Positions 6,778 to 27,856 of a DNA stretch of 64,000 nucleotides are shown piece after piece. A program made the position numbers and the translations under genes. Each line of letters begins with the position of its first letter. The first letter of the stretch is position 1. The notes below the pieces were generated by a model. The model had not been told where the DNA came from. It did no database searches and saw only the letters and a list, made by a program, of their open reading frames with translations. This DNA is from Catellatospora coxensis (GTDB lineage: Bacteria; Actinomycetota; Actinomycetes; Mycobacteriales; Micromonosporaceae): positions 1-64,000 of the forward strand of contig NZ_BONI01000045.1 of assembly GCF_016862635.1 (NCBI RefSeq). The letters are read 5' to 3'.

Positions 6778-7335
6778 CTACTCCAGGTTCTCCCTGGAGA
6801 TCGGCGGGCCGATCCGGAGGTCGCGGAACGTGGCCTCCAGCCCCGCGCGCTCGGGTGAGCAGCACATGACACCGACGTCGACGGTCTCCGGCAGGTCGAG
6901 GTAGCCGAGGCGGGCCAGCTGCCACGTGCCGTCCGCGTTGCGGAAGTGCACGGTCAGGGCCTCGCCGAAGCGGGTCACCCGCATCGCCATCTCACCGCGG
7001 TGACCCGGGACCGGCACCATCGACACGTCGGAGAACTCGCGCGTGTAGACCGTGCTGACGTGGACGGTGCCGGAGGTGACCTCCAGGCCGGTCTTCAGCC
7101 AGTTGCCCACGTCGGCCCGGACCATCATGCCGGCCTGGTCGAACAGCGTCGTGTGCGAAGCGGACACGACGACCTCGGCGGTGAAGTCGCCGGCCACCGG
7201 CCGGTGGTAGAAGTGCCCGCTGTCGGTGACCCACCCGTAGAACGTCCTGCGCCAGAAGTCCGTCTTCAGCTCGGTGACGGCGCGCAGCACGCCGCCTTCC
7301 AGCGACCATTCACCCGGCTCGTTCAACCAGGACAT
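6778..7335 (-). CDS. DUF1349 domain protein downstream of the GH38 mannosidase
   Basis: A 185-residue protein of the DUF1349 family (concanavalin-like beta-sandwich). Signature parts are DFWRRTFYGWVTDSGHFYH, FDQAGMMVRADVGNWLKTGLE and VGVMCCSP. There is no signal peptide, so it is presumably cytoplasmic. ATG 7335 was chosen because the conserved fold starts immediately after it (WLNEPGEWSL) and upstream residues are low-complexity. It lies 46 bases after the GH38 gene on the same strand, so it is the last gene of that two-gene unit. DUF1349 proteins are often found beside glycoside hydrolases; whether they bind or cleave sugar is not settled. Confidence 0.85.
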   Translation of the reverse strand: MSWLNEPGEWSLEGGVLRAVTELKTDFWRRTFYGWVTDSGHFYHRPVAGDFTAEVVVSASHTTLFDQAGMMVRADVGNWLKTGLEVTSGTVHVSTVYTREFSDVSMVPVPGHRGEMAMRVTRFGEALTVHFRNADGTWQLARLGYLDLPETVDVGVMCCSPERAGLEATFRDLRIGPPISRENLE

Positions 7336-7381
7336 TCCCGTCAGCACAGCGGAGATCGTAACCGCCGCCGCGGCTGCGCGC

Positions 7382-10300
7382 TCACCTGCTGAGCCTGATG
7401 GTGAGGATCTGGAAAGGACGGAGCCGCAGGTCGACACGGCTGACCTCGGGCCCGCCGTGGGACGGCGGTGCGTCGCCGACCGGGTTCTCGAGCAGGTCGG
7501 CGAGCCGGGCGGTGGCGTAGGGAACCGCGACGGTCAGCCGCGCCGCCGCCTGGCCCCCGTGCGCCTCGTACAGCCGGACCACGACGTCCCCGCTGCGGTC
7601 GTCGGCCAGTTTGACCGCCTCGACCACGACGCCGTCATGGTCGACCGCGACCAGCGGCGCGACGGCCCGCCCGCCCACGACCCGCCGCACCGGCAGGTTC
7701 AGGTGGTATCCGTCACGCACCGCGTCGGCGATCCCGGCGCCGGGCAGCAGCACGTGCCGGAACGAGTGGGCGCCCTGATCGGTGCCCGGGTCGGGGAAAC
7801 GAGCGGCGCGCAGCAGCGACACCCGCACCATGGTCGCCGTCCGTCCCTGCCGGTCCCGGACGCGGCTCACCTCGTGGCCGTAGGTGGCGTCGTTGAGCAG
7901 CGCCACGCCGTAGCCCGGTTCGCCGACGTGCAGCCACCGGTGGGCGCACACCTCGAACCGGGCGGCGTCCCACGAGGTGTTGGTGTGCGTCGGGCGCTTG
8001 ACGTGCCCGTACTGGATCTCGGAGGAGGAGTGGTCGGCGAGCACGTCGACGGGGAACGCGAGCTTGAGGATCTTCTCGCTCTCGTGCCAGGAGACGTCGG
8101 TGTCGATGTCGAGCGCGCCCCGCCCGGCCGCCAGCCGTAGCCGCTGCACCATCTCCGACCCGCCGAACCGGCGTACGACGCGCACCCGGCACTCGTCCGG
8201 CGTCGCCGCTTCGAGCCGGACCTCCTCGGCGGGCAGCTCGGCCGCGGTGTTGCGGTAGTACGAGTCGATCTCCCAGGCGTCCCAGGCGTGGGGCACATCC
8301 GGGTGCAGCTGGACGAGGTTGGCGGCCAGTCCGTCGGGAACGACCTCCCGCCCCACCCGGAGATCGACCAGCGAACTGATCAGGCCGGTGCGGCCCACGG
8401 TCACCCGGAGCACGCCGTTGTCCAGCACGATCCCGTCCTCGCCGGCGACGGCGGTCACCGGCGGGTCCGTCTCGCCCTTGGCCGGGCGGGACCCGGGTGC
8501 CAGGGCCGCGCCCAGCGCGGGCAGCCCGTCGCGGGCGTGCGGCGCGGCGTTGAACAGCACCGGCGTGCCGCCGGGTCCGGCGAGGGCGCGCAGCGCGCCG
8601 TCGACGATGCCTTCCAGCTCCGCGCACACCCGGGCGTAGGTCTGCTCGGCCTCCTGGTGCACCCAGGCGATCGAGCTGCCCGGCAGGATGTCGTGGAACT
8701 GGTGCAGCAAAACCGTCTTCCACAGCCGGTCCAGCGCGTCGTACGGGTACTCGGCCAGCCCCGCGACGGCCGCCGTGCCCGCCCACAGCTCGGCCTCGCG
8801 CAGCAGGTGCTCGCTGCGCCGGTTGCCGCGTTTGGTGCGGGCCTGGCTGGTGTAGGTGCCCCGGTGGAACTCCAGATACAGCTCGCCGGCCCACACCGGG
8901 GGATGCGGGTACTCCGCCTCGGCCGCCCGGAAGAACTCCGCGGGCGAGCGCATGGTGACCCGCGGCGAGCCTTCCAGGTCCGCGGTGCGCCGCGCCCTGG
9001 CGATCATCTCGCGGGTGGGGCCGCCGCCGCCGTCGCCCCAGCCGAACGGCACGAGCGAGTGGGTGGCGCGGCCCTTCTCGGCGAAGTTGCGCGCCGCGTG
9101 CGCCAGCTCGGCGGCCGACAGCTCGCTGTTGTAGGTGTCCACCGGCGGGAAGTGGGTGAAGACCCGGCTGCCGTCGACGCCCTCCCAGTCGAAGGTGTGG
9201 TGCGGGAAGCGGTTGGTCTGGTTCCAGGACAGCTTCTGGGTCAGGAACCAGCGCGCCCCGGCGAGCCGGATGAGCTGCGGGAGCGCGGCGCTGTAGCCGA
9301 ACGAGTCGGGCAGCCACACCTCCTGGGTGTCGATCCCGAACTCGTCGGCGTAGAAGCGCTTGCCGTGCACGAGCTGGCGGGCCAGGGACTCGCCGCCGGG
9401 CAGGTTGGTGTCCGACTCGACCCACATGCCGCCCACGGGGACGAACCGGCCCGCCGCGATGTGCTCGCTGATCCGGGCGTACAGCTGCGGCTGGTGCTCC
9501 TTCATCCAGGCGAGCTGCTGCGCCTGCGACATGGCGTACCGGAAGTCGTCGTGCTCGGCCAGCAGCGCGGTGACGTTGGCCGTGGTGCGGGCCACCTTGC
9601 GTACGGTCTCGCGCAGCGGCCACAGCCAGGCGGTGTCGATGTGCGCGTGCCCGACCGCCGAGATCCGGTGCGCGCTGGCGTGCGCGGGTCGCGTCAGGAC
9701 GTCGGCGAGCTGCTCGCGGGCCGCGCCGGCGCTTCCGGGCACGTCGGACAGGTCGGTCGCGTCCAGGGACCGCTCGATCGCGCGCAGGATCTCGAACCGG
9801 CGCGCGTCGTGCGGGCTCAGCTCGGCCATGAGCTGGGAGAGGACCTCCAGGTCCTGGACGAGTTCCCAGACCTGACGTTCGAAGACGGCCAGTTCGATCC
9901 GGCCCAGCCGGTACAGCGGCTCGGCGCCCGCCGTGGCGCGGTCGCCGAGGTCGGTGCGGCCCCACGGGAGGCCGATCAGCGGGTTGGCCGCCGCCTCGAC
10001 CAGGAAGCCCACCGGCTCGCCGCCGCGGGCGGGACGGGCGACGGGCAGGTGGCCGCTGCGCGGGTGCAGTCCTTTCACGATCTGCCCGTCGAGGGCGTAC
10101 GCCAGGCCCTCGCACTGGAACCCCGGCCGGTCGGCGTCGAACCCGAGGTCGACCAGCGCCTCGACCTCGCGGCCGGCCCAGTCGGCGGGGACCTCGCCCG
10201 TGATGCGCCACCAGGCGGTGCCCCACGGCGCACCCCACCGGTCACCCGCGGCCGCGGGCGCGTACGCCGCGGCGGCGGCCTCGGTGAACGGGACCGGTTC

Positions 10301-10420
10301 ACCGGGTGCGTGCCACACGTGCACCGTCAACGCGCTGGTCGCGGAGTGGACCGCGGGGCGGATCCGTTCGGCCAGCAGCCGCCGCAGCCGCCGTTCCACC
10401 AGGACGTGGTCGTCATGCAT
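7382..10420 (-). CDS. GH38 alpha-mannosidase
   Basis: A 1012-residue family GH38 enzyme, near the usual size of bacterial cytosolic members. The N-terminal catalytic domain has the zinc-site block GHAHIDTAWLWPLRETVRKV, the WLPDSFGYSAALPQ nucleophile region, and FGWGDGGGGPTREM. Beta-sandwich domains follow. No signal peptide is visible, so it should act on imported oligosaccharides. ATG 10420 was preferred because it follows an AGGTG-type ribosome site and begins the conserved MHDDHVLVERR region. The family cleaves alpha-mannosidic bonds with retention. In this locus the likely substrate is mannose caps or branches of lipoarabinomannan-type glycans (inference). The operator at 10515-10526 lies 95 bases upstream. 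Confidence 0.93.
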   Translation of the reverse strand: MHDDHVLVERRLRRLLAERIRPAVHSATSALTVHVWHAPGEPVPFTEAAAAAYAPAAAGDRWGAPWGTAWWRITGEVPADWAGREVEALVDLGFDADRPGFQCEGLAYALDGQIVKGLHPRSGHLPVARPARGGEPVGFLVEAAANPLIGLPWGRTDLGDRATAGAEPLYRLGRIELAVFERQVWELVQDLEVLSQLMAELSPHDARRFEILRAIERSLDATDLSDVPGSAGAAREQLADVLTRPAHASAHRISAVGHAHIDTAWLWPLRETVRKVARTTANVTALLAEHDDFRYAMSQAQQLAWMKEHQPQLYARISEHIAAGRFVPVGGMWVESDTNLPGGESLARQLVHGKRFYADEFGIDTQEVWLPDSFGYSAALPQLIRLAGARWFLTQKLSWNQTNRFPHHTFDWEGVDGSRVFTHFPPVDTYNSELSAAELAHAARNFAEKGRATHSLVPFGWGDGGGGPTREMIARARRTADLEGSPRVTMRSPAEFFRAAEAEYPHPPVWAGELYLEFHRGTYTSQARTKRGNRRSEHLLREAELWAGTAAVAGLAEYPYDALDRLWKTVLLHQFHDILPGSSIAWVHQEAEQTYARVCAELEGIVDGALRALAGPGGTPVLFNAAPHARDGLPALGAALAPGSRPAKGETDPPVTAVAGEDGIVLDNGVLRVTVGRTGLISSLVDLRVGREVVPDGLAANLVQLHPDVPHAWDAWEIDSYYRNTAAELPAEEVRLEAATPDECRVRVVRRFGGSEMVQRLRLAAGRGALDIDTDVSWHESEKILKLAFPVDVLADHSSSEIQYGHVKRPTHTNTSWDAARFEVCAHRWLHVGEPGYGVALLNDATYGHEVSRVRDRQGRTATMVRVSLLRAARFPDPGTDQGAHSFRHVLLPGAGIADAVRDGYHLNLPVRRVVGGRAVAPLVAVDHDGVVVEAVKLADDRSGDVVVRLYEAHGGQAAARLTVAVPYATARLADLLENPVGDAPPSHGGPEVSRVDLRLRPFQILTIRLSR

Positions 10421-10514
10421 GGGCACCTCGCAGAGTCGGCTGATCCGTGCCCGCCGTGCCGGGGCGGCCACCGAGATCTTAACCTCATATCCGCTCCCCG
10501 TGCCGCAGGATCTT

Positions 10515-10526
10515 GAAATCGATTTC
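10515..10526. promoter_or_regulatory. LacI-type operator GAAATCGATTTC, site 1 (GH38 side)
   Basis: A perfect 12-bp palindrome, GAAATCGATTTC, in the divergent region between the GH38 unit and the GH183 lipoprotein operon. On the minus strand a TTGCCC element (10540-10535) precedes it and CAAGAT overlaps its far end with a 19-base gap, a weak promoter candidate. The same word recurs at 22897-22908 and, with one mismatch each, at 10584-10595 and 24029-24040. Confidence 0.75.
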
Positions 10527-10578: not shown

Positions 10579-10607
10579 TTGACGAAACCGATTTCCTCGG
10601 GTTCACT
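10579..10607 (+). promoter_or_regulatory. Promoter with LacI-type operator, site 2 (GH183/ABC operon)
   Basis: A -35-like TTGACG (10579-10584), a 17-base spacer and a weak -10 TTCACT (10602-10607) precede the GH183-ABC transporter operon. The near-palindrome GAAACCGATTTC (10584-10595) fills the spacer, so a bound repressor would occlude RNA polymerase. The -10 match is poor, so the promoter call is less certain than the operator call. Confidence 0.65.
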
Positions 10608-10643: not shown

Positions 10644-11777
10644 GTGCCGGCAACGCGCATGAAACCCCGCCGCTCCCGTCGTGACTGGACGGCGGCGCTC
10701 CTCGCCGTCGTGGTCGTTTCCGCCGGCTGCTCCACCCGAGGAGGGCAGATGAACCCGATGGCAGAGCAGCCCTTCCGGCTGGCGGGCGTGACCGAGGTGC
10801 GGCGGGTGTCGCAGCTGACCGGACCGGACTCGCCGAACCGCACCGACCGCGTCGCGGTCGCGGGCACCGACCTGGGGTCGATGTTCGAGGCGGACGGCAA
10901 GGTCTGGTTCGTCTTCGGGGACACCTTCGGCAGGCGGGAGCCGGGTTTCACCGGCGGCGGTGGTGAGCAGTGGCGCTCGAACGCGCTGGCGCACTCCACC
11001 GACACCGACCCGGCCGACGGCATCACGCTGGACTTCATCGTCGACGAGCAGGGCCATGCCAAGGAACTGCTCGGCTCCGAGAAGGTCGACTTCAGCGAGA
11101 TGACGGTGATCCCGACCTACGGGTTCGCCGCGAACGGCGCGATGTACCTCGCCTACATGTCCGTCCGCCACTGGGGCGAGCCGGGCGAGTGGGAGGCCAA
11201 CCACGCGGGCCTGGGCAAGTCGACCGATCACGGGCAGACGTGGGTCAAGCTGGCCGCGCCGACCTGGCCGGGGGACAGCAACTTCGTCCAGGTCAGCGTC
11301 GCCGAGGTCGGCGGGCAGCTCTACTTCTGGGGCGTCACGCACGGCCGGTTCGGCGGCGTGCAGCTGATGAAGGTCGAGCCGGCACAGGTCGAGGTCCCGG
11401 GCGCGTACCGGTACTTCGCCGGCACCGCCGCCGACGGATCGCCGCTCTGGTCGGCAGACCGGGCCGCGGCGCGCACCATCGTCGACGACACGGTCGGCGA
11501 GCTGTCCGTGGTGTGGAACGAGCACCTGCAGAGGTGGCTGATGTCCTATACCAACGGCGGCGGAGCGGGCGCGAGCCTGCGCGAGGGCCTGACGCCGTGG
11601 GGGCCCTGGGGTGACGCGATCACCCTGGTCTCCGCGGCCGACGTGCCGGGGCTCTACTCGCCGTACATGCTCCCGCGGTTCACTGCGGACGGGGGCAGAA
11701 CCATCTATTTCACGCTTTCGGTCTGGGACCCGTACAACGTCTTCTGGTACCGGGCCGACCTGGTCAGCAAAGCCTGA
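10644..11777 (+). CDS. GH183 (DUF4185) lipoprotein, endo-D-arabinanase candidate
   Basis: A 377-residue DUF4185/GH183 five-bladed beta-propeller protein. The N-terminus ends in a lipobox (VVVVSAGC, Cys29), so it should be tethered to the outer face of the membrane. Family landmarks are VAGTDLGSMFEADGKVWFVF followed by GDTFG, YMSVRHWGEPGEW and SVWDPYNVFWYRADL. Asp76 and Asp93 are the candidate catalytic pair, with spacing like that of characterised members. GTG 10644 follows AAAGG by seven bases. Characterised GH183 enzymes cut internal alpha-D-arabinofuranosyl bonds of mycobacterial arabinogalactan and lipoarabinomannan; activity here is inferred. It opens an operon with the sugar ABC transporter. 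Confidence 0.88.
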   Translation: MPATRMKPRRSRRDWTAALLAVVVVSAGCSTRGGQMNPMAEQPFRLAGVTEVRRVSQLTGPDSPNRTDRVAVAGTDLGSMFEADGKVWFVFGDTFGRREPGFTGGGGEQWRSNALAHSTDTDPADGITLDFIVDEQGHAKELLGSEKVDFSEMTVIPTYGFAANGAMYLAYMSVRHWGEPGEWEANHAGLGKSTDHGQTWVKLAAPTWPGDSNFVQVSVAEVGGQLYFWGVTHGRFGGVQLMKVEPAQVEVPGAYRYFAGTAADGSPLWSADRAAARTIVDDTVGELSVVWNEHLQRWLMSYTNGGGAGASLREGLTPWGPWGDAITLVSAADVPGLYSPYMLPRFTADGGRTIYFTLSVWDPYNVFWYRADLVSKA

Positions 11778-11833: not shown

Positions 11834-13156
11834 ATGCGCAGACGCGGCATGGTTTTGCTCGCGATAGCAGCTGTCACTGCGTCCACCGTGTTGAGCGGTT
11901 GCGGCGGTGGGAGCGAGGATCCGGCCGGCAAGACCACCCTCACGTTCTGGCAGCAGAAGTTCGAGGACTACCAGCAGGCGTGGTTCAAGAAGTACGTGGA
12001 CCAGTACAACGCCTCGCAGGACAAGGTGAAGGTCGAGCTGCAGGTCGTGCCCGCCGACACCTGGGCGCAGAAGCTCAAGGCGGCGCAGGCCGCGGGCAAG
12101 GCCCCCGACATCGCGACGACCAGCTACGGCAACGTCGCCCCGGGCGTGGCACAGGGCCAGTTCGCCGCCCTGGACGAGCTGCTGCCCGCCGAGGCGTTCA
12201 CCGACGTCAAGGACAACGTCAAGGGCTTCGTCACGGTCGGCGGCAAGCACTACGCGTACCCGATGCTGGTCGAGCCGTCGACGGTGCTGTACTACCGCAC
12301 CGACCTGGTGACCGCGGCCGGGCTGGACCCGAACAGCCCGCCGAAGACCTGGGACGAGCTGGTCCAGTGGGCGACCAAGCTGACCCAGGGCAAGGTCAAG
12401 GGCATGACCATCGCGTCGGCCGGGGTGGACCTGGGCTGGTCCAGCTGGGGCCTGCAGTACAACGCCTGCGGCAAGCTGCCGGTGAACGACGACTGGTCGA
12501 AGTCCACGGCGACCGAGCCGTGCTTCGAGAAGCTGCTGAACTTCTACAAGACGCTGTACCAGGGCGGCCTGATCCCCAAGACGCCCAAGGTCGGCTACGC
12601 CGACGGCGCGCCGTACGGGCAGGGCGAGGTCGCGATGATGGCCGGCGGCTCGTGGGTGATCGGCCAGCTCAAGAACGATTTCAAGGCGATGGTCGCCAAG
12701 ACCGCGGTCGCCCCGTTCCCGTCGATCGACGGCGACCCGACCAAGACCACCGCCACCCTCGGCGGCTGGACGCTGACCGTCGACGCCAAGTCCAAGGGCA
12801 AGCAGCAGGCCGCCGACTTCGTCAAGTACCTGCTGGCCGGCGACCCGGCGATCATGGCCGACTTCTTCAAGACCAGCGGCTTCTCCAAGTACACCGTGCG
12901 CGCCTCGGTGGACCAGGCGCTGGTGGGCAACCCCGACGCCACCTCCGACCCGTTCATGAAGGTCATCTCGGAGAAGGTCGTGCCGTTCGGCAAGCAGGAG
13001 CCCGCCTACCCGTGGGACATCTCGCTGGCCTTCGGCACCGCGATCGAGTCGGCGATGAAGGGCAAGGCCGACGTGCCGACCTCACTGAAGACGGCCGCGG
13101 CCGCCATCGACGACGTCATCAAGAAGCAGTCGCTGGCCGGGACTGCGCCCAAGTAA
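11834..13156 (+). CDS. Sugar-binding lipoprotein of an ABC importer
   Basis: A 440-residue family 1 solute-binding protein. The signal peptide ends in a lipobox (TVLSGCGGG), and the mature part begins KTTLTFWQQKFEDYQ, with the usual two-lobe pattern (PDIATTSYGN; KHYAYPMLVEPSTVLYYRTD; MMAGGSWVIGQL; GGWTLTVDAKSKGK). A strong AAAAGGAGGAG ribosome site precedes ATG 11834. It follows the GH183 lipoprotein by 56 bases and precedes two permeases. The ligand is probably an oligosaccharide; D-arabino-oligosaccharides are the contextual guess. A long hairpin directly after the gene (13169-13206) could stabilise this mRNA segment so that binding protein outnumbers permease. Confidence 0.93.
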   Translation: MRRRGMVLLAIAAVTASTVLSGCGGGSEDPAGKTTLTFWQQKFEDYQQAWFKKYVDQYNASQDKVKVELQVVPADTWAQKLKAAQAAGKAPDIATTSYGNVAPGVAQGQFAALDELLPAEAFTDVKDNVKGFVTVGGKHYAYPMLVEPSTVLYYRTDLVTAAGLDPNSPPKTWDELVQWATKLTQGKVKGMTIASAGVDLGWSSWGLQYNACGKLPVNDDWSKSTATEPCFEKLLNFYKTLYQGGLIPKTPKVGYADGAPYGQGEVAMMAGGSWVIGQLKNDFKAMVAKTAVAPFPSIDGDPTKTTATLGGWTLTVDAKSKGKQQAADFVKYLLAGDPAIMADFFKTSGFSKYTVRASVDQALVGNPDATSDPFMKVISEKVVPFGKQEPAYPWDISLAFGTAIESAMKGKADVPTSLKTAAAAIDDVIKKQSLAGTAPK

Positions 13157-13225: not shown

Positions 13226-14191
13226 TTGACTGCTCTGGACTCGCGGGTCGCCGCGCCGCCCGACCCGGCCCCGGACGCCGAGCCGCGCGGCGGCCGGCGG
13301 GCCGCCGCGGCCCGCCACGGACGGGACAACCGCACCGCCTACCTGATGATCGCCCCGATGGTGGTGCTGCTCGGCATCTTCGTGTTCTGGCCACTGGCCA
13401 ACTCCGTTTACCTGAGCACCTTCAAGATCAGTTTCTACCAGGAGCCGGAGTTCGTCGGCCTGGACTTCTACCAGTACGTGCTGGAGAGCCCGCGCTTCTG
13501 GGAGTCGATCGTCGTCGGCCTCTACTACGCGGTGCTCACCGTGCCGACCGGCATCGTCATCGCGCTGCTGCTGGCCAGCTTCATCAAGACGCTGAGCAGG
13601 CGGCTGGCCTCCTACATGAAGGTCACCGTCTACCTGCCGGCCGTCGTGTCCACCGTCGTCGCCTCGGTCCTGTTCGTGTTCATGTACCAGGACGAGGGCG
13701 TCATCAACTGGATGCTCAGCCTGCTCAACCACGGCCCGGTCAACTGGCTCAACGACCCGTCGTACGCGCTGCCCGCCGTCGCCGTGCCCGGCATCTGGCT
13801 CAGCTTCGGCGTCACCACGCTGATCCTGCTGGCCGGCCTGCTGGACATCCCGGAGAACTACTACGAGTCGGCGCAGCTCGACGGGGCCGGCTTCTTCCAG
13901 CGGCTGTTCAAAATCACCATCCCGCTGCTCAAGAACGTGCTGCTCTACCTGCTGGTCACCGGCTTCACCCTCGCCATCCAGCTGTTCGAGCTGCCGCTCA
14001 TCATGACCAACGGCGGCCCGGTCGACGCCACGACCACCCCGAACCTCTACATCTTCAACAGCTTCCGCGACCTGACGCCGTACGCCACCAGCTTCTCGCT
14101 CACCGCGTCGCTGATGCTGTTCGTCGTGCTCGGCGCGATCTCGCTGGTGATCTTCAAGCTCGTCAACTCCGACAAAGCCATCGACGGCTAG
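13226..14191 (+). CDS. ABC sugar transporter permease 1 (MalF-like)
   Basis: A 321-residue inner-membrane permease of the MalF/UgpA type with six predicted helices after a basic, proline-rich N-terminus. The EAA loop is PENYYESAQLDGAGFFQRLF, followed by KITIPLLK. The start is a TTG at 13226 after a GAGGGG element; no better-placed ATG or GTG exists near the conserved region. It pairs with the second permease 11 bases downstream. No ATP-binding subunit is encoded here, as in many actinobacterial sugar importers that share one MsiK-type ATPase. Confidence 0.92.
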   Translation: MTALDSRVAAPPDPAPDAEPRGGRRAAAARHGRDNRTAYLMIAPMVVLLGIFVFWPLANSVYLSTFKISFYQEPEFVGLDFYQYVLESPRFWESIVVGLYYAVLTVPTGIVIALLLASFIKTLSRRLASYMKVTVYLPAVVSTVVASVLFVFMYQDEGVINWMLSLLNHGPVNWLNDPSYALPAVAVPGIWLSFGVTTLILLAGLLDIPENYYESAQLDGAGFFQRLFKITIPLLKNVLLYLLVTGFTLAIQLFELPLIMTNGGPVDATTTPNLYIFNSFRDLTPYATSFSLTASLMLFVVLGAISLVIFKLVNSDKAIDG

Positions 14192-14202: not shown

Positions 14203-15024
14203 ATGACCAAGTCCGTCCCGCAACGGGTCTTCTCCGCCGTGCTCATCACCCTGATCAGCCTCAGCGTGATGTTCCCCCTCGCCTGGATGGCGATCTCCGG
14301 GTTCAAGGGCAAGACCGAGGTGCTGCGCTCGCCGTTCCAGTTCTTCCCCGACATGTGGCGCTGGGACAACTACTCGGCGATCCTGGCCGACCCGCAGTTC
14401 ATGCGGGCGATGGGCGTCACCGTCGTCGGCGCGCTCATCTTCACCGCGCTGAGCCTGACCGTGAACACCCTCGCCGCGTACGCGTTCGCCCGGCTGGAGT
14501 TCACCGGCAAGCGCTTCTGGTGGGTGTACTGCCTGACCCCGATGTTCATCCCGGCCATGGCGATCCTGCTCACCTCGTTCATGGTGGTGTCCGACCTCGG
14601 CATGCTCGACACCCTCGCGGTGCTGATCATCCCGGGCGCCGCGTCGGCCGGTCAGATGTTCTTCATCCGGCAGTTCTACCTGGGCTTCCCGATCGCGGTC
14701 GAGGAGGCCGCGCTGGTCGACGGCGCGACCCGCTGGCAGATCTTCGTCCGGGTGTTCCTGCCCCAGTCCGCGGCCCCGTTCGTGGTCATGGGCATCGCGT
14801 CCTACCTGGCGTACTGGAACGCCTACGTGTGGCCGGTGCTCACCATCACCGACCCCGACCTGACCCAGATCATGCAGTTCCTCGGCAACTTCCGCTCCGA
14901 CCGGGGCAACGACTGGGGCCTGCTGATGGCCGGCTCCACGCTGGCGTCCCTGCCCACCATCGGCCTGCTGCTGATCTTCCAGCGCTTCATCGTCAACGGC
15001 GTGCGCATCTCGGGCATCAAGTGA
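14203..15024 (+). CDS. ABC sugar transporter permease 2 (MalG-like)
   Basis: A 273-residue MalG/UgpE-type permease with six helices. The EAA loop reads PIAVEEAALVDGATRWQIF, followed by FLPQSAAPF. ATG 14203 follows GCAGGGGAG. The stop overlaps the GTG of the mannitol-dehydrogenase-family gene by four bases, so import and oxidation or reduction of the sugar are probably co-expressed. It completes the membrane part of the importer. Confidence 0.93.
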   Translation: MTKSVPQRVFSAVLITLISLSVMFPLAWMAISGFKGKTEVLRSPFQFFPDMWRWDNYSAILADPQFMRAMGVTVVGALIFTALSLTVNTLAAYAFARLEFTGKRFWWVYCLTPMFIPAMAILLTSFMVVSDLGMLDTLAVLIIPGAASAGQMFFIRQFYLGFPIAVEEAALVDGATRWQIFVRVFLPQSAAPFVVMGIASYLAYWNAYVWPVLTITDPDLTQIMQFLGNFRSDRGNDWGLLMAGSTLASLPTIGLLLIFQRFIVNGVRISGIK

Positions 15025-16541: not shown

Positions 16542-17060
16542 ATGATCGTATGGATCAACGGCACCCACGGCGCCGGCAAGACGACGACCAGTGCCCTCGT
16601 GCGACCACTGATCCCGGATTCACGGGTATTCGACGCCGAGAAGGTCGGCGAGACCCTCATGGACATCTCGCCGGGGTTGCCCGAAACGGACAACTTCCAG
16701 CACTGGCCGCCGTGGCGGCAACTCGTCGTCGAGACCGCCCGGCGCGTACTCGACTACACCGGCGGCACCCTGGTGGTGCCGATGACCGTCCTGGTCGAGC
16801 AGTACTGGCGCGAGATCAGCACAGGCCTCGCCCAACACCGCATCCCGGTCAGGCACTTCGTCCTCCACGCCGACCAGGACACCCTCCGCGGACGCATCGA
16901 GGGAGAACACGCCGTCCCCTCCCCGTTCCGCCTCAAATACCTTGAGCCCTACGCCGAGGCGTCCCGCACGTGGCTGCACAGCGAGGCCGAGGTCGTCGAC
17001 ACGACGCACCTCACGCCCACCCAGGCGGCCCTGCGTATCGCAGAGGCCGTCAAGAGCTGA
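16542..17060 (+). CDS. P-loop kinase/ATPase resembling TmrB
   Basis: A 172-residue small P-loop NTPase. The Walker A motif is at the very N-terminus (VWINGTHGAGKTTT), the central region carries GTLVVPMTVLVEQYWREI, and DQDTLRGRIEGEHA matches the lid region of nucleotide/shikimate-kinase-like folds. The overall pattern resembles the tunicamycin-resistance protein TmrB and other uncharacterised AAA/NMP-kinase-like proteins. A TAGCAT box ends eight bases upstream of ATG 16542, suggesting its own leaderless promoter. It sits between two hairpins inside the polysaccharide locus but has separate transcription signals, so it may be a passenger. Substrate unknown. Confidence 0.75.
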   Translation: MIVWINGTHGAGKTTTSALVRPLIPDSRVFDAEKVGETLMDISPGLPETDNFQHWPPWRQLVVETARRVLDYTGGTLVVPMTVLVEQYWREISTGLAQHRIPVRHFVLHADQDTLRGRIEGEHAVPSPFRLKYLEPYAEASRTWLHSEAEVVDTTHLTPTQAALRIAEAVKS

Positions 17061-21372: not shown

Positions 21373-22881
21373 TCAGCGGTCGGCGGGCCGGCGTTCGCGG
21401 GCGGCGAGGGCGTGCACGGTCGGCGCGGTCGCCGGATACAGGTCGAGGTAGAGCGCGTAAAGCTCGTCGTAGTCGGCGCGGACCGACGGCCGCGGCGTGC
21501 GCGTCTCGACGATCGGGTTCCACTCGCCGATGTCGGGCTCGCCGACCGCGCCCGCGGCCAGGAACGCCGCCCCGAACGCCGCCCCGATCGTCTTGGCCGG
21601 GATGGCCTGCGGCAGGCCGGTCACATCGGACACGATCTGGGTCCACAGGCTGCCCTGCGCGCCACCGCCGACGGCCACGATCCGCTCGACCTGCCCGCCC
21701 GCCTGCTCGATCGCGGCCACGTTGTGCCGTACGCCGAACGCCGTCGCCTCCAGCGCCGCCCGGTACAGGTCGCCGCGGGTGTGCGCGACGGTGAGCCCGG
21801 CCAGCACCCCGCGCGCGTCGGGGTCGGCGATCGGGGTGCGCTCCCCGGCGAAGTACGGCAGCAGGAGCAGCCCGTGCGCGCCCGGCCCGGCCGCGTCGGC
21901 CAGCGCCAGCAGCTCCGGGTAGCCCGGCGAGCCGAACAGCTCGCGCAGCCAGCCTGTGATCGCGCCCGAGGTGGCCATGCCCCCGGCGAGGTTGCGGGTG
22001 CCGGGCAGCGCGCCGACCGTGCCCCACAGCGTCGGCGAGGTCAGCGGCTTGTCCACGGTGTTGATGAGGAACATCGTGGTGCCGTACATCAGCATCAGGT
22101 CGCCGACCTGGTGTGCGCCGACGCTGATCGCCTCCGACCACGCGTCGATGGTGCCCGCGATCACGGGCGTCCCGGCTTCGAGCCCGGTCTCGGCGGCGGC
22201 CTGCGCCGACACCCCGCCGACGATGTCGCCCGGCCACACCAGCGGCGGCAGCTGCGCCCCCGCGGCGACCTCGGCCGCCCACGGGCCGTGCCAGCCCTGC
22301 GCGCCCGCGTCGTACATCGGGGTGCACTGGCTGGCCGAGTGGTGGTCGAGGTAGTAGGCGCCGGTCAGCTTCCAGCCGAGCCAGGTGCTGGGCTGGAACA
22401 GCCGCCAGTCCCCGGCGACGGCCTGCGGCTCGTGCTCGGCCAGCCAGGCCAGCTTCGGCCCGACCGCCTGCGTGCTCAGCGACGAGCCGCAGCGCTCGCG
22501 GATCGCGTCCGCGCCGCCGAGCCGCTCGGTCAGCCGCTCGATCTGCGCGGTGGCGCGGGTATCGATTCCATACAGGACCGCGGGACGGCGCGGCTCACCC
22601 GCCAGGTCGGTGACCAGCACACAGGGGCCCATGCCGCTCACGCCGACCGACCGCACCTGCCCCGGCTCGGGGGCGCCGGGCGCGGCCAGCAGCTCGCGGA
22701 TGATGCCGGCAGCCTCGTCCCACCAGACGTGGGCGTCCATCTCGACGTGACCGGGCGCGGGCCGGAGCACCTCGTGCTCACGGGTGGCGGTGGCGACGAT
22801 CGTGCCGTCGAGCGTGACGAGCACGCCCTTGCTGCTCGACGTTCCGATGTCGACGCCGAGGACACAGGCTTGCCTCAACAT
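21373..22881 (-). CDS. FGGY-family carbohydrate kinase (pentulose kinase candidate)
   Basis: A 502-residue FGGY sugar kinase. The N-terminal ATPase fold has CVLGVDIGTSSSKGVLVTLDG, the sugar site includes VSGMGPCVLV and IAGTIDAWSEAISVGA, and the C-terminal lobe has LPYFAGERTPIADPDARG and VAVGGGAQGSLWTQI. Overall it resembles xylulo-, ribulo- and gluconokinases; the sequence alone does not settle the sugar. Beside an isomerase able to make D-ribulose, phosphorylation of D-ribulose (or D-xylulose) into the pentose phosphate pathway is the natural reading. ATG 22881 lies six bases after the -10 box of an operator-bearing promoter, so the mRNA is probably leaderless. First gene of the kinase-GH116-isomerase operon. 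Confidence 0.9.
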   Translation of the reverse strand: MLRQACVLGVDIGTSSSKGVLVTLDGTIVATATREHEVLRPAPGHVEMDAHVWWDEAAGIIRELLAAPGAPEPGQVRSVGVSGMGPCVLVTDLAGEPRRPAVLYGIDTRATAQIERLTERLGGADAIRERCGSSLSTQAVGPKLAWLAEHEPQAVAGDWRLFQPSTWLGWKLTGAYYLDHHSASQCTPMYDAGAQGWHGPWAAEVAAGAQLPPLVWPGDIVGGVSAQAAAETGLEAGTPVIAGTIDAWSEAISVGAHQVGDLMLMYGTTMFLINTVDKPLTSPTLWGTVGALPGTRNLAGGMATSGAITGWLRELFGSPGYPELLALADAAGPGAHGLLLLPYFAGERTPIADPDARGVLAGLTVAHTRGDLYRAALEATAFGVRHNVAAIEQAGGQVERIVAVGGGAQGSLWTQIVSDVTGLPQAIPAKTIGAAFGAAFLAAGAVGEPDIGEWNPIVETRTPRPSVRADYDELYALYLDLYPATAPTVHALAARERRPADR

Positions 22882-22887
22882 GCCCGT

Positions 22888-22916
22888 ACCCTGTCAGAAA
22901 TCGATTTCACCGTCAA
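22888..22916 (-). promoter_or_regulatory. Promoter with LacI-type operator, site 3 (kinase-GH116-isomerase operon)
   Basis: Read on the minus strand: -35 TTGACG (22916-22911), a 17-base spacer, -10 CAGGGT (22893-22888), then six bases to the kinase ATG. The perfect palindrome GAAATCGATTTC (22897-22908) occupies the spacer. It lies in the 68-base gap after the LacI gene, so the operon has its own repressible promoter even if some transcription reads through from the regulator. Confidence 0.82.
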
Positions 22917-22949: not shown

Positions 22950-23921
22950 TCAGCCGACGGGCGTCAGCTGGTTGCGCAGCACGATGGTGCGGGCCGGCTG
23001 GTCGTCGCCGGTGATGCGTTCCAGCAGCAGTTTCGCGGCGGTGGTGCCCAGGTGCCGGGCGGGCATGTGCACCACCGTGATCGGGATCGGCACCAGCGGC
23101 AGGAACGGCAGGTCGCCGAAGACCGCCACCCCCGTGGCGGGGGGCAGTTTGCCCTGCTCGGACAGCACCCGCAGGGCGCCGACGCTCATCAGGTTGTTGG
23201 CCACGAACACCGCGTCGGGCGGCTCGGGCAGCGCGAGCAGTTCACTCATGGCCGCCGCGCCGCCCTCGACGCGGAAGTCGGCGTAGCGCAGGTAGCGGTC
23301 GTCGGTCGGGCGCGCGGCCGTGACCGCGTCGCGCCAGCCGTCGGCGCGCTGCGTGGCGGTCTCGACGTCGCTCGGGCCGGTGATGCAGGCGATGCGCTGG
23401 AAACCCTGCTCCACCAGGGCCTGCGTGGCGGCCCGGCCGCCCGCCCGGTTGTCGACGATGACCGCGTCCACGTCCACGCCGTGCGGGCTGCGGTCGACCG
23501 CCACGACCGGGCACTTGCGCGCGATCAGGCCGCTCAGGTCGCTGTTGCCGCCGGCCGCCGCGATGATCACGCCGGCCATGTTGGCGCTCAGCGCGACGTC
23601 GAGGTAGCGCAGCTCGGTGTCGTGGTCCTCGTCGGTGTTGCACAGCACCACCGAGTATCCGGCCGCGCGGGCGACGTCCTCGACGCCGCGGGCCAGCGCG
23701 GTGAAGAACGGGTTCTCGATGTCCGGGATGACCAGAGCGATCACCTCGGAGCTCTGCAGCCGCAGGGTGCGCGCGGTGCGGCTCGGGGTGAACGCGAGCG
23801 CCTTGGCCGCCTTGCGCACGGCCTCGGCCTTCTCGGGGGACACGTTGGCGCCGTTGAACACGCGCGAGACGGTGGCGGGAGAGACCCCGGCCGCGGCGGC
23901 GACCTCGTAGATCGTTGGCAT
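22950..23921 (-). CDS. LacI-family repressor, probable regulator of the locus
   Basis: A 323-residue LacI/GalR regulator. The N-terminal helix-turn-helix and hinge read PTIYEVAAAAGVSPATVSRV, then ARTLRLQSSEVIALVIPDIE leads into the periplasmic-binding-like effector domain (NMAGVIIAAAGGNS; FQRIACITGPSDVETATQRA; DAVFVANNLMSVGALRVL). ATG 23921 follows GAGGAAGCG and starts exactly at the conserved DNA-binding domain; upstream in-frame residues do not fit the family. It lies between two copies of the GAAATCGATTTC-type operator, one before the kinase operon and one before the divergent GH172 gene, so it is the obvious candidate repressor. The inducer is probably a D-arabinose-containing saccharide (inference). 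Confidence 0.93.
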   Translation of the reverse strand: MPTIYEVAAAAGVSPATVSRVFNGANVSPEKAEAVRKAAKALAFTPSRTARTLRLQSSEVIALVIPDIENPFFTALARGVEDVARAAGYSVVLCNTDEDHDTELRYLDVALSANMAGVIIAAAGGNSDLSGLIARKCPVVAVDRSPHGVDVDAVIVDNRAGGRAATQALVEQGFQRIACITGPSDVETATQRADGWRDAVTAARPTDDRYLRYADFRVEGGAAAMSELLALPEPPDAVFVANNLMSVGALRVLSEQGKLPPATGVAVFGDLPFLPLVPIPITVVHMPARHLGTTAAKLLLERITGDDQPARTIVLRNQLTPVG

Positions 23922-23996: not shown

Positions 23997-24040
23997 TTGA
24001 CACGATAGCCGCCTCACCCTACCTTAATGAAATCGATTCC
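23997..24040 (+). promoter_or_regulatory. Promoter with LacI-type operator, site 4 (GH172-GH183-esterase operon)
   Basis: The clearest promoter in the window: -35 TTGACA (23997-24002), 17-base spacer, -10 TACCTT (24020-24025). The near-palindrome GAAATCGATTCC (24029-24040) covers the predicted transcription start, a classic repressor position. It could also affect the divergent LacI gene, giving autoregulation. Confidence 0.85.
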
Positions 24041-24097: not shown

Positions 24098-25219
24098 GTG
24101 GTCACCGTGGACCTCAGTACGATCGCACGGCTGAGGGCCGTGCAGACCCGCTCGATCAGCCCGGAGAACTTCGACGGATCGGCAGGCGGCGGGGGCCGGG
24201 CGACCGAGGGCACCGGCGCGGCGTGCGCCCGCGACCTCGGCCCCGGCTGGAAGATCTCGCCCAGCGTCGACATCGCCGCCGGGGAGACCTTCGACCTGGC
24301 CAACATCCAGGGCCCCGGCAAGATCACGCACATCTGGATCACCACGCACAAGGACAACTGGCGCACCCTGCTGCTGCGAGCGTACTGGGACGGCAGCGAG
24401 GAGCCCGCGATCGAGGTTCCCTACGGGGACTTCTTCTGCAGCGGCTGGGGCGATTTCGCCCAGGTCGACTCGCAGGTCATCGCCGCCAACCCGCACGGGG
24501 GATTCAACTCGTACTGGCCGATGCCGTTCACCGACGGCGCCCGCCTGACCGTGGAGAACCTGTCCACGGTCAGCGTCCGGGTCTACTACCAGATCACCTA
24601 CGAGATCGGCGGCGACTACTCGGGCCTGGGCTACCTGCACGCCCAGTGGCGGCGCAGCAACCCCCTCGAACACCTCAAGACGCACGTGCTGGTCGACGGC
24701 GTCGAGGGCAGCGGCCACTACGTCGGCACCTACCTGGCCTGGGGCGTCAACAGCAACGGCTGGTGGGGCGAGGGCGAGATCAAGTTCTACCTCGACGACG
24801 ACGAGGACTACCCGACCATCTGCGGCACCGGCACCGAGGACTACTTCGGCGGCGCGTGGAACTTCGACGTGCCCGGCAAGGGCTACACCGCCTACTCCAC
24901 GCCGTACCTGGGCATGCCGCAGGTGATCCGCCCCGACGGGCTCTACGTCAGCCAGCAGCGCTTCGGCATGTACCGCTGGCACCTGCCCGACCCGATCCAC
25001 TTCGCGCAGCGGCTGCGCGTCGACATCCAGGCGCTGGGCTGGCGCTCCGGGTGGCGCTACCTGCCGCTGCGCGACGACATCGCCTCGACGGCCCTGTTCT
25101 ACCTCGACCGGCCCACGGCGCGCCGCCCGCGCACGCCCAGCGCCGACGACCTGGAGGTCCATCTGGGGTCGGCCCCCGTGCCGGACCTGGGGGCGCAGCC
25201 ACCGCGCATGCCGGACTGA
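24098..25219 (+). CDS. GH172 (DUF2961), exo-alpha-D-arabinofuranosidase candidate
   Basis: A 373-residue DUF2961/GH172 protein: double jelly-roll fold, no signal peptide, so cytoplasmic. Family landmarks are QGPGKITHIWIT, a WWGEGEIKF strand (Glu225/Glu227) and the hallmark ICGTGTEDYFGGAW (Glu247). The spacing of about 20-22 residues between the two Glu clusters matches the catalytic pair of characterised members. Known activities are hydrolysis of alpha-D-arabinofuranosides, including mycobacterial D-arabinan, and of alpha-D-fructofuranosides. The arabinan role is favoured by the GH183 and GH116 neighbours. GTG 24098 is used because an AGGAGAG site lies five bases upstream. First gene of a three-gene operon. 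Confidence 0.9.
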   Translation: MVTVDLSTIARLRAVQTRSISPENFDGSAGGGGRATEGTGAACARDLGPGWKISPSVDIAAGETFDLANIQGPGKITHIWITTHKDNWRTLLLRAYWDGSEEPAIEVPYGDFFCSGWGDFAQVDSQVIAANPHGGFNSYWPMPFTDGARLTVENLSTVSVRVYYQITYEIGGDYSGLGYLHAQWRRSNPLEHLKTHVLVDGVEGSGHYVGTYLAWGVNSNGWWGEGEIKFYLDDDEDYPTICGTGTEDYFGGAWNFDVPGKGYTAYSTPYLGMPQVIRPDGLYVSQQRFGMYRWHLPDPIHFAQRLRVDIQALGWRSGWRYLPLRDDIASTALFYLDRPTARRPRTPSADDLEVHLGSAPVPDLGAQPPRMPD

Positions 25220-25240
25220 CCGGCACCACGTTTCACCGGG

Positions 25241-25269
25241 ACGGCAGGCCGCACCCGGCGGCTTGCCGT
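25241..25269 (+). other. Intercistronic hairpin between GH172 and GH183 genes
   Basis: A 12-bp stem with one G-U wobble (25241-25252 with 25258-25269, 5-base loop) lies 22 bases after the GH172 stop and 28 before the next start. It could adjust expression of the secreted enzymes relative to GH172. Function is inferred from position only. Confidence 0.4.
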
Positions 25270-25296
25270 GCCCGCGACAGGGAAGGAGAACCGCAC

Positions 25297-26859
25297 ATGC
25301 ACCCGCACAACGGACTCAGATCCATCCCGCGTATCCTCGCCGGCGTCGCCCTGACGCTCGGCACCGTGGCCGCGACCGGCTTCGTCGCCGTCGCGCCCGC
25401 CGCCGCCACCTCCGCGCACACCCCGGCGACCGTCATCCAGAAGATCACCGGCGTCGGCTCGCCGAACAACACCTACGGCCGCTGGAACCTCAAGGCCACC
25501 GACCTCGGCATCCTGTGGGACAACAACGCCGGCCAGACCATGGCCCTGTTCGGCGACACCTTCGGCGACGCCTGGATCGGCCCCGGCGGCGGCGCGTTCG
25601 GCGCCGGCGACCTGAACTGGCGCAGCAACGTGCTGCTGCGCTCCACCGACACCAACCTCGCCGACGGCATGTCGTTCGCCAGCGCCGTCACCGCCGCCGA
25701 CGGGCGGGCCCGGGAGATCCTGCCCGGCCTGCACCAGCCCGACAACACCGGCGAGGTCACCAAGATCCCCACCGCGGGCATCGCCGTCGGCAACCGGCAG
25801 TACGTGTCGTTCATGTCGGTGCGCCACTGGGGCGTGCCCGGCCAGTGGACCACGAACTACGCCAAGCTCGCCTACTCCGACGACAACGGCAACACGTGGT
25901 CCACCACGAACACCCCGGTCTGGAACAACCCGTCGTTCACCGACCAGTTCCAGATGCACGCGTTCGAGCGCCGCGACGGCTACCTGTACGTCTTCGGCAC
26001 CCCGAGCGGCCGCAGCGGCAGCATCCGGCTCGCCCGCGTGCCCGAGGCCCAGATCCTGACCCAGAGCGCCTGGCAGTACTGGAACGGCGGCGCCTGGGTG
26101 ACCAACAACCTCGCCGCCGCCACCCCGATCGTCGGCGCGCCCGCCGCCGAGCTGTCCGTGCGCTACGACGCCTACAGCGGCCGCTGGCTGATGATGTACC
26201 TGTCCGGCGAGGACATCATCCTGCGCACCGCGACCAGCCCCACCGGCCCGTGGAGCGGCGCGCAGACCGTCGCCGGCTCCGCCGACTACCCGGGTCTGTA
26301 CGGCGGCTACATCCACCCGTGGAGCTCCGGCGGCAACATCTACTTCGCGATGTCGCAGTGGGACCCCTACAACGTGTACCTGATGAAGATCCGGATCAAC
26401 ACCGCCGGGCAGATCATCGACCCGAACCTGATGGGCGACCCGAGCTTCGAACGCGGCGCGCTCAACGGCAGCGGCACCGGCGGCTTCTGGGCCTGCAAGG
26501 GCAACTGCGGCCTCGACAACGGCTACTGGGGCTACACCGGCGTACGCAACGGCTACGCCCGCTACAACAGCGGCTGGCACGACCTGCACCAGACCGTGCC
26601 CGTCACCGCGAACACCAACTACCAGCTCAGCGGCTTCCTGCGCACCTCGCCGAACAGCGACAACGGCTTCTTCGGCGTACGCGGCACCAACGACGTCGTC
26701 ATCGCCGAGGCCAACTTCCGCGCCGTCGGGGCGTGGACCCGGTTCACCGTGAACTTCAACAGCGGCTCGCGTACCGCCGTCACCGTATTCGGCGGCGTCT
26801 GGACCGACCACGGCGACATCTGGATCCAGCTCGACGACTTCTCCCTCACCCGCGTCTGA
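25297..26859 (+). CDS. Secreted GH183 (DUF4185) with C-terminal carbohydrate-binding domain
   Basis: A 520-residue exported protein: a Sec-type signal peptide ending VAVAPAAATSA, a DUF4185/GH183 beta-propeller at about residues 45-380, and a C-terminal CBM4/9-like beta-sandwich from about 383 (LMGDPSFERGALNGSGTGGF to WIQLDDFSLTRV). Propeller landmarks match the other copy in this window: WNLKATDLGILWDNNAGQTM then ALFGDTFGD (candidate catalytic Asp69 and Asp87), FMSVRHWGVPGQW and MSQWDPYNVYLMK. ATG 25297 follows GGAAGGAGAA. Unlike the lipoprotein copy, this one should be released and can bind glycan. Endo-D-arabinanase activity is inferred from the family. It is followed 16 bases later by the esterase. 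Confidence 0.88.
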   Translation: MHPHNGLRSIPRILAGVALTLGTVAATGFVAVAPAAATSAHTPATVIQKITGVGSPNNTYGRWNLKATDLGILWDNNAGQTMALFGDTFGDAWIGPGGGAFGAGDLNWRSNVLLRSTDTNLADGMSFASAVTAADGRAREILPGLHQPDNTGEVTKIPTAGIAVGNRQYVSFMSVRHWGVPGQWTTNYAKLAYSDDNGNTWSTTNTPVWNNPSFTDQFQMHAFERRDGYLYVFGTPSGRSGSIRLARVPEAQILTQSAWQYWNGGAWVTNNLAAATPIVGAPAAELSVRYDAYSGRWLMMYLSGEDIILRTATSPTGPWSGAQTVAGSADYPGLYGGYIHPWSSGGNIYFAMSQWDPYNVYLMKIRINTAGQIIDPNLMGDPSFERGALNGSGTGGFWACKGNCGLDNGYWGYTGVRNGYARYNSGWHDLHQTVPVTANTNYQLSGFLRTSPNSDNGFFGVRGTNDVVIAEANFRAVGAWTRFTVNFNSGSRTAVTVFGGVWTDHGDIWIQLDDFSLTRV

Positions 26860-26875
26860 CCCGGCCGGAGCGATC

Positions 26876-27856
26876 ATGGACCAGCACACCTCCCGCACCC
26901 TCAGCCGCCGGCGGCTGCTCACCGGGGCCGCGGCGGCCGGCGTCGCCGCGAGCCTGTTCTCCGGCGCGCCCGCCCAGGCCGCGGGCGACGGTTTCGGCCT
27001 GCGCATCGTCGACCGCAACGAGAACGGCGGACGGCTGCAGTACTACCGCTTCGCCACCGACGCGATCGAGTGGGATCCGGCGGTCAACATCCTGCTTCCG
27101 GACGGTTACCACACCAGCGGCAAGCGATACCCGATCCTGTTCCTGCTGCACGGCGGCGGGGGAGCGGATTTCCGCACCTTCCACCTGCAGGACAACATCG
27201 TCAACCTGACCGCGGGCCGGGAACTGATCGTCGTCATGCCCGACGCGTCCACCGGCTGGTACAGCAACCCGGTCAGCACCCTGGCCGGGCCACGGAACTG
27301 GGAGACCTTCCACATCGGGCAGCTGCTGCCCTGGGTGGAGGCGAACTTCCGCACCTTCGCCGAGTACGACGGCCGCGCCGTGGCGGGCTTCTCCATGGGC
27401 GGCTTCGGGGCGCTGAAGTACACCGCGAAGTACTACGGCCACTTCTGCTCCGTCAGCGCCCACTCCGGCCCGGCCAGCCTGCGCCGCGACTTCGGCCTGG
27501 TGGTGCACTGGGCCAACGCCACCTCCGCCGCGCTCGACCTCGGCGGCGGCACCGTCTACGGCGCGCCGCTGTGGGACGAGGCGCGGGTCAGCGCCGACAA
27601 CCCGATGCAGCGCGTCCCCAGCTACCACAACAAGCGGATCTTCCTGGTGGCCGGCACCTCACCGGACCCGGTCAACTGGTTCGACTCCGCCAACGAGACG
27701 CAGGTCCTGGCCGGGCAGCGCGAGTTCCGCGCCGCGCTCGGCCAGGCCGGCATCCCGCACGAGTGGCACGAGCGTCCCGGCGGCCACTACTTCCGCCACG
27801 ACATGTTCCTGCGCGACCTCGACGGCATGCTCGCCCGCCTGCGCCGCGCCGGCTGA
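26876..27856 (+). CDS. TAT-exported antigen-85-fold esterase
   Basis: A 326-residue alpha/beta hydrolase of the esterase D/antigen 85 group. A twin-arginine signal (LSRRRLLTGAAAAG) predicts folded export. The core has ILFLLHGGGGADFRT (oxyanion region), the nucleophile elbow AGFSMGGFGALKY and a C-terminal WHERPGGHYF that supplies the His. Relatives include feruloyl and S-formylglutathione esterases and the mycolyltransferases of mycobacteria. Placed directly after a secreted endo-D-arabinanase candidate, it may remove ester groups such as mycoloyl or succinyl residues that decorate D-arabinan; that is inference. ATG 26876 lies 16 bases after the GH183 stop, and the operon ends at a strong hairpin. 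Confidence 0.88.
   Translation: MDQHTSRTLSRRRLLTGAAAAGVAASLFSGAPAQAAGDGFGLRIVDRNENGGRLQYYRFATDAIEWDPAVNILLPDGYHTSGKRYPILFLLHGGGGADFRTFHLQDNIVNLTAGRELIVVMPDASTGWYSNPVSTLAGPRNWETFHIGQLLPWVEANFRTFAEYDGRAVAGFSMGGFGALKYTAKYYGHFCSVSAHSGPASLRRDFGLVVHWANATSAALDLGGGTVYGAPLWDEARVSADNPMQRVPSYHNKRIFLVAGTSPDPVNWFDSANETQVLAGQREFRAALGQAGIPHEWHERPGGHYFRHDMFLRDLDGMLARLRRAG

Follow-up and report, generated by a model that had tools for sequence, protein, structure and literature searches.

A polysaccharide utilisation locus (PUL) for D-arabinan was described in 2023 from Microbacterium arabinogalactanolyticum, where it is induced by D-arabinose and by a mycobacterial wall extract (PMC10509167). According to the main text of that paper, it comprises GH183, GH172 and GH116 hydrolases, an ATP-binding cassette (ABC) importer, an isomerase and a kinase; its endo-enzymes are secreted and its exo-enzymes have no signal sequence. 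The same text names a gene set in Cellulomonas and putative clusters in other Actinobacteria, and DUF4185 (GH183) proteins are described as common within actinobacteria (PMC10115798). The cluster of Dysgonomonas gadei, with GH183 and GH172 (PMC10115798) and a putative GH116 (PMC10509167), lies in a Bacteroidota host, and the latter paper distinguishes the Gram-positive PUL from the kind seen in Gram-negatives. A locus sharing the components of the Microbacterium PUL is found in Catellatospora coxensis, a soil-type actinomycete of the family Micromonosporaceae, at positions 6778-27856 of contig NZ_BONI01000045.1, of which we analysed the stretch from 1 to 64,000 (the window). It is very probably a D-arabinan utilisation locus that serves the use of foreign D-arabinan. 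We regard it as a known system in a well-supported new host, not as a new kind of system.

Pfam searches found in this region the families of two GH183 proteins (GH183a and GH183b), GH172, GH116, GH38, an importer, an isomerase, a kinase, a dehydrogenase, a LacI regulator and an esterase (Table 1). The preliminary description of this DNA had placed two GH183, one GH172 and one GH116 gene together with an importer, an isomerase, a pentulose kinase, a polyol dehydrogenase, a mannosidase, an exported esterase and a LacI regulator; all are present, profile searches assigned the GH183, GH172, GH116 and GH38 proteins as proposed, and a DUF1349 gene that had gone unnamed completes the left end. Relative to the Microbacterium PUL, the locus has two GH183 genes instead of four, and adds GH38, the polyol dehydrogenase, the CE1-type esterase and DUF1349. 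The main text describing that PUL, figures and supplement aside, contains neither the word mannosidase nor the word esterase (PMC10509167).

The enzymes were compared with the Protein Data Bank (PDB) using phmmer, and residues named in PMC10509167 were located by counting along the alignments. GH172 is closely homologous to ExoMA1, GH183b to EndoMA1 and GH116 to ExoMA2, three M. arabinogalactanolyticum enzymes that have been crystallised. The alignment of GH183b with EndoMA1 spans residues 2-479 of 488, covering both the catalytic domain and the carbohydrate-binding module (CBM), and GH183b keeps seven of seven CBM contacts (Asn361, Asp365, Arg381, Tyr382, Asn383, Asp466 and Gln470). GH183a is too short for a C-terminal arabinan-binding module, and the catalytic Asp33 and Asp51 (EndoMA1 numbering) are aligned in both proteins. 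For GH116, the match to ExoMA2 compares with E=1e-25 for the best GH116 beta-glucosidase, and the nucleophile Glu431, the acid/base Asp557, His446 and Arg483 are kept (chain numbering offset 4), the last two being differences from beta-glucosidase (PMC10509167). GH172 scores 759 bits to ExoMA1 versus 133 to alphaFFase1, and retains, within GGAWNF, the equivalent of Asn253 of ExoMA1, which replaces a fructose-admitting Gly and excludes fructose (PMC10509167). All residues checked are thus kept, and active-site conservation is claimed for these residues. Signal sequences, assessed by eye throughout, are lipobox-like in GH183a, of a secretion type in GH183b and of the twin-arginine (TAT) type in the esterase, and none was seen in GH172, GH116 or GH38; this pattern agrees with the published model of endo-cleavage outside and exo-cleavage inside the cell. 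Together with the common operator described below, the homology to characterised hydrolases and the kept specificity residues support the D-arabinan-degrading function that had been proposed for the predicted proteins.

Table 1. Genes and predicted operator sites of the locus (positions in the window)
Feature	Position	Strand	Evidence and remarks
DUF1349 protein	6778..7335	-	Pfam PF07081 190 bits; refined start; no signal peptide seen; last gene of GH38 unit
GH38 alpha-mannosidase	7382..10420	-	Pfam PF01074 317 bits + C-terminal domains; refined start; no signal peptide seen
Predicted LacI operator GAAATCGATTTC, GH38/GH183a intergenic	10515..10526		pattern search
Predicted LacI operator GAAACCGATTTC, upstream of GH183a	10584..10595		pattern search
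GH183a (DUF4185), predicted lipoprotein endo-D-arabinanase	10644..11777	+	Pfam 308 bits; EndoMA1 E=5e-53; lipobox-like AGC
Sugar-binding lipoprotein, ABC importer	11834..13156	+	SBP_bac_1/8
ABC importer permease 1	13226..14191	+	BPD_transp_1
ABC importer permease 2	14203..15024	+	BPD_transp_1; refined start
Mannitol-dehydrogenase-family polyol dehydrogenase	15021..16412	+	Pfam mannitol dehydrogenase domains; start overlaps permease 2 stop
Small AAA-type kinase open reading frame	16542..17060	+	PF13671 27.9 bits vs cut-off 27
D-arabinose/L-fucose-type isomerase	17175..18812	-	weak Pfam L-fucose isomerase domains; start overlaps GH116 stop
Predicted GH116 exo-beta-D-arabinofuranosidase, ExoMA2 type	18809..21325	-	Pfam N-terminal 176 + catalytic 159 bits; ExoMA2 8ic6 E=3e-268; no signal peptide seen
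FGGY pentulose kinase, predicted D-ribulokinase	21373..22881	-	FGGY_N, FGGY_C; XylB 295 bits vs cut-off 380
Predicted LacI operator GAAATCGATTTC, upstream of kinase-GH116-isomerase genes	22897..22908		pattern search
LacI-family regulator, predicted D-arabinan repressor	22950..23921	-	Pfam LacI + Peripla_BP
Predicted LacI operator GAAATCGATTCC, LacI/GH172 intergenic	24029..24040		pattern search
Predicted GH172 exo-alpha-D-arabinofuranosidase, ExoMA1 type	24098..25219	+	DUF2961 294 bits; ExoMA1 8ic8 E=1e-227; no signal peptide seen
GH183b, predicted secreted endo-D-arabinanase + C-terminal CBM, EndoMA1 type	25297..26859	+	DUF4185 389 bits; EndoMA1 8hhv E=2e-183
CE1-type esterase, TAT signal	26876..27856	+	Esterase PF00756 147 bits; SRRRLL, GFSMGG motifs

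Genes were called by codon-position GC, with Pfam run on the longest open reading frames (ORFs) and start positions refined afterwards; all 15 ORFs of the locus are open from start to stop. Gene order, as opposed to mapped transcripts, suggests four blocks: GH38 and DUF1349 (leftward); GH183a, the sugar-binding protein, both permeases and the polyol dehydrogenase (rightward); LacI, kinase, GH116 and isomerase (leftward); and GH172, GH183b and esterase (rightward). The importer, isomerase and kinase adjoin the hydrolases, as in a D-arabinan PUL. The locus had been called self-contained, which goes slightly too far: no importer ATPase subunit was found among the 19 ORFs scanned by Pfam, and no galactan-degrading enzyme was identified (none was searched for genome-wide). 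For comparison we used 80 named loci, each reaching up to 10 kb on either side of GH172 and less at contig ends, so that farther genes would escape. The core of GH183, GH172 and GH116 occurs in 13 of them, in Microbacterium, Sanguibacter, Cryobacterium, Rhodoglobus and Agromyces, always with matches to LacI and the isomerase (in L011 the contig end truncates the isomerase). Since this core recurs, and since three same-genus genomes have most of the set in order and three same-family genomes have part of it, the grouping of the genes is not due to chance. The small AAA-kinase ORF was rejected as a pathway member and probably stands outside the pathway, because none of 87 other loci has a match to it.

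The genes of the locus appear to be tied together by a common predicted operator: four GAAAYCGATTYC sites lie across three of its intergenic regions. Allowing up to one mismatch, the window holds 8 strand-matches at 4 places versus a mean of 0.24 in shuffled sequences, and 7 places in the 9.35 Mb genome match the pattern exactly, 4 of them in this locus (reversed-pattern control, 0). A LacI orthologue, defined as a LacI at least 55% identical, is found in 27 of the 80 named loci. With up to one mismatch, these 27 carry 75 sites in 540 kb, versus 21 sites in 942 kb for the other 53, and in three simulated sets of these loci no site appeared. In all 27, the GH172 match is preceded by a site no more than 184 bp upstream; several Microbacterium loci have exact sites also before the binding-protein and GH183 genes. 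Among the relatives of the host, the reversed-pattern control gave one match, in G016. These shared operator-like sites lend indirect support to the predicted induction of the locus by D-arabinose or arabinogalactan. The words LacI and repressor are absent from the main text on the Microbacterium PUL, figures and supplement aside (PMC10509167), and we found no paper on LacI control of D-arabinose or arabinogalactan use, judged by title and opening abstract.

Operator-like sites and related genes were also seen elsewhere in the host genome (G000). Two exact GAAATCGATTTC sites precede an Rbs-type sugar ABC importer (G000:C21:64788-64965; L093:9789-9966), on a contig without a LacI match. The closest relatives of this importer, in G042 (84%) and G045 (44%), stand beside large DUF2961 and GH43/GH32-like genes, and the locus-bearing genomes G016, G019 and G021 have relatives of its binding protein at 34-35% only; because of these neighbours and these low identities, we do not claim the importer for the D-arabinose regulon. 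One further exact match precedes a Gfo/Idh/MocA-type oxidoreductase gene (G000:C27:63133-63144; L094:9634). A third GH183 gene (G000:C19:1-2148; L097:7-2148) encodes an apparently secreted protein with FG-GAP repeats, 53% identical to GH183b over 61% of the latter, on a contig with no exact operator match, and a second GH172-type gene (G000:C27:99611-102739; L096:7612-10740) codes for a large protein that combines DUF2961 with FG-GAP repeats.

The distribution of the locus in Micromonosporaceae is patchy. Besides the host, a close GH172 was found in 3 of the 10 same-genus genomes searched (95-98% identity) and in 3 of the 26 same-family genomes (85-89%), with most of the gene set recurring in order in the former and part of it in the latter. 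G021 has the whole locus except the AAA-kinase ORF; G019 lacks this ORF and most of DUF1349, and G016 lacks it together with GH38. The FGGY kinase is absent, within the stretch compared, from one of these six relatives, G045. A sister species, G025 (L150, 7054-10483), carries a gutted copy, reduced to DUF1349 (retained also in G016 and G021), the kinase, LacI, the first part of GH172 and two operator sites; the remaining locus genes were unmatched within the 20 kb stretch, and loss of the locus therefore occurs. In the phylum at large, the isomerase, used as a marker (E up to 1e-60), was found in 4 of 396 genomes drawn, host included.

No 16S rRNA match was found in the assembly, and rpoB was compared across 14 named genomes (the metagenome-assembled genome L036, with only an rpoB fragment, was excluded). 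Identity to the host was highest in Actinocatenispora (88.7%), with Streptomyces and Pseudonocardia at 78.8% and Microbacterium at 72%, which places the host in Micromonosporaceae. In a GH172 tree of 35 rows, which included neither ExoMA1 nor alphaFFase1, the host falls in a clade of 19 rows (98/94) that also contains Microbacteriaceae, Sanguibacter and Promicromonospora, and Actinocatenispora, of the same family as the host, is placed elsewhere. The GH172 of the host is 81-86% identical to those of nine Microbacterium loci, above the rpoB identity. Placement and identity suggest that GH172 may have been transferred between families; several inner branches are weakly supported, and slow evolution of GH172 would be an alternative.

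Loci in Streptomyces (e.g. L034, L040, L048) share with the host GH172, isomerase, kinase and LacI genes, with operator sites upstream of GH172; their isomerases are 77% identical to that of the host, their kinases 63-65% and their LacI proteins 60-61%. Unlike the host, they have no GH116 and weak or no GH183 matches within 10 kb of GH172. The combination of GH172, kinase, isomerase, LacI and operator-like sites, with no GH116 match within that distance, is seen in L034, L040, L041, L045, L048, L060 and L063, which possibly represent a reduced D-arabinofuranoside system.

From the protein families, active-site residues, localisation signals and conserved operator-like sites we infer a pathway, in which the individual activities, the import specificity, the pairing of repressor and operator, the inducer and the order of steps are put forward conditionally. 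Outside the cell, secreted GH183b and the lipoprotein GH183a would cut foreign D-arabinan, that of arabinogalactan and lipoarabinomannan. D-arabino-oligosaccharides would be taken up by the binding protein and two permeases with an ATPase encoded elsewhere, after which cytoplasmic GH172 would remove alpha-D-arabinofuranosyl and GH116 beta-D-arabinofuranosyl residues, and mannose caps may be taken off by GH38. The isomerase would yield D-ribulose and the FGGY kinase D-ribulose 5-phosphate, which would enter the pentose phosphate pathway. LacI would act at the GAAATCGATTTC-type sites to repress the transcription units, and D-arabinose or a derivative would relieve this repression.

Several observations weigh against this reading. 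The isomerase reaches 26 and 25 bits with the Pfam L-fucose isomerase domains, under the cut-offs of 29 and 28, and its sequence matched no PDB chain. The FGGY kinase is certain as to family, with XylB as its closest named model, under cut-off (Table 1); D-ribulose as its substrate is suggested by gene context. The polyol dehydrogenase scores about equally as D-arabinitol 4-dehydrogenase (357 bits, NCBIfam cut-off 600) and as fructuronate reductase (350 bits), both under cut-off, and the published pathway defines no role for this enzyme, for GH38 or for the esterase. Nor is the operator confined to this LacI regulator: 15 of the other 53 named loci have a site, within 450 bp upstream of GH172 in 10 of them, and same-genus genomes without a close GH172 contain the exact pattern in G017, G020, G023 and G024 (none in G018 and G022). 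The host genome has 45 LacI-type genes. The motif resembles general LacI-family operators, and related LacI proteins therefore probably share it. In favour of the reading, an AlphaFold model of the isomerase from 23 sequences (pLDDT, the predicted local distance difference test, 87) matched best the Bacillus pallidus D-arabinose isomerase 3a9r and then L-fucose isomerases (first three matches, E 3e-19 to 4e-18); with a template modelling (TM) score of about 0.5 and a root-mean-square deviation of about 23, the model supports the D-arabinose/L-fucose isomerase fold class, not its details.

The same genes could in principle serve other ends, one being to trim a D-arabinan in the wall of the host itself. 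Arabinose is a known whole-cell sugar of Micromonosporaceae. For Actinoplanes missouriensis, xylose and arabinose are reported as such sugars, the chirality of the arabinose being unstated in the passages concerned, and the species does not use D-arabinose (PMC3569393); mycobacteria, moreover, encode GH183 enzymes acting on their own type of arabinan (PMC10115798). Yet no homologue of Emb (PF04602) or AftA (PF12250) was matched in the host, with a Corynebacterium glutamicum control positive for both (other arabinan-biosynthesis genes were not searched), and the host appears, on these two families, unable to make mycobacterial-type D-arabinan. The catabolism of foreign D-arabinan is therefore the best reading. 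The sparse same-genus occurrence and the gutted copy fit an optional nutrient trait, and the importer, isomerase and kinase in the locus likewise speak against self-remodelling, which we consider highly improbable. Use of fructans or difructose anhydrides, with GH172 acting on alpha-D-fructofuranosides and the dehydrogenase on mannitol or fructose, deserves hardly any credence. Another GH172 member does cleave alpha-D-fructofuranosyl linkages (PMC8605356), and in G042 and G045 there is a second system of the GH172 type, which includes GH43/GH32-like genes and has an operator match nearby; but the host GH172 groups with Microbacterium sequences, is far closer to ExoMA1 than to alphaFFase1 and keeps the Asn said to block fructose (PMC10509167), its companions are GH183 and an ExoMA2-type GH116, and the isomerase fold is of the D-arabinose/L-fucose type.

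That the locus serves chiefly for killing mycolic-acid bacteria, and for feeding in second place, is also improbable. An epibiotic predator of Gordonia has GH183 and GH172 genes (PMC10115798), and the exported esterase is encoded 16 bases 3' of GH183b. Against this stand the nutrient-locus layout, the exo-enzymes without signal peptides and the LacI regulator, and the present evidence shows no killing. Feeding on D-arabinan of the mycolic-acid wall type, as the preliminary description had it, is well supported; that the host attacks cell walls we would only infer.

The additional genes of the locus are less widespread. None of the 80 named loci gave a match to GH38, DUF1349, the AAA-kinase ORF or the esterase, and the polyol dehydrogenase had one weak match (27% identity, L065). 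Among the six locus-bearing relatives, within the stretches compared, the dehydrogenase and the esterase occur in four each, GH38 in two and DUF1349 in two, with a partial trace of it in one more; none has the AAA-kinase ORF. Sequence matches place the esterase in the CE1/Ag85 superfamily only; its match to Cmt1 is weak (E 6e-9), weaker than to feruloyl-type esterases, and a model from five close orthologues has a pLDDT of 33. Arabinogalactan carries mycolate esters. Succinyl groups are recorded on the D-arabinan of mannosylated lipoarabinomannan (Man-LAM; PMC3229680). These esters motivate a tentative and rather doubtful hypothesis, namely that the TAT-exported enzyme acts as an arabinan de-esterase, removing mycolate or succinate from D-arabinan and so opening intact mycolic-acid walls to GH183. 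If this is true, and if GH38 takes off the mannose caps, then the system of Micromonosporaceae would strip walls more completely than the Microbacterium PUL.

Outside the locus, the window encodes a predicted glucuronoyl esterase with CBM2, likely a plant-wall enzyme (37581-39413), a homologue of Castor/Pollux-type ion channels (40718-42607), and a single chain of 1871 aa combining biotin carboxylase, biotin carrier and carboxyltransferase (46009-51624).

The locus had been placed outside known hosts. This holds only in part. The words Actinoplanes and Micromonospora are absent from the 2023 main texts (PMC10509167, PMC10115798; figures and supplements aside, and Fig. 9 of the former could show Micromonosporaceae clusters). 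But the gene set had already been published in 2023, together with its induction by D-arabinose and its occurrence in Microbacterium, Cellulomonas and other Actinobacteria, and the claim of novelty was therefore too strong. The D-arabinanase literature, by title and opening abstract among the matches listed, has nothing on Micromonosporaceae; no paper with both d-arabinan and Actinoplanes was found, and one paper that names Micromonospora together with arabinan has, judged by passages, no bearing on the wall arabinan of Micromonospora. What is new is the predicted operator and regulon, the patchy distribution with a gutted copy, and the accessory genes for GH38, the dehydrogenase and the esterase. 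The enzymes could serve as reagents in the analysis of arabinogalactan and lipoarabinomannan, and the esterase is a candidate enzyme for arabinan that carries esters. The locus extends to Micromonosporaceae a recently discovered pathway by which mycobacterial-type wall D-arabinan is dismantled, with a regulator and an operator predicted for it across several families.

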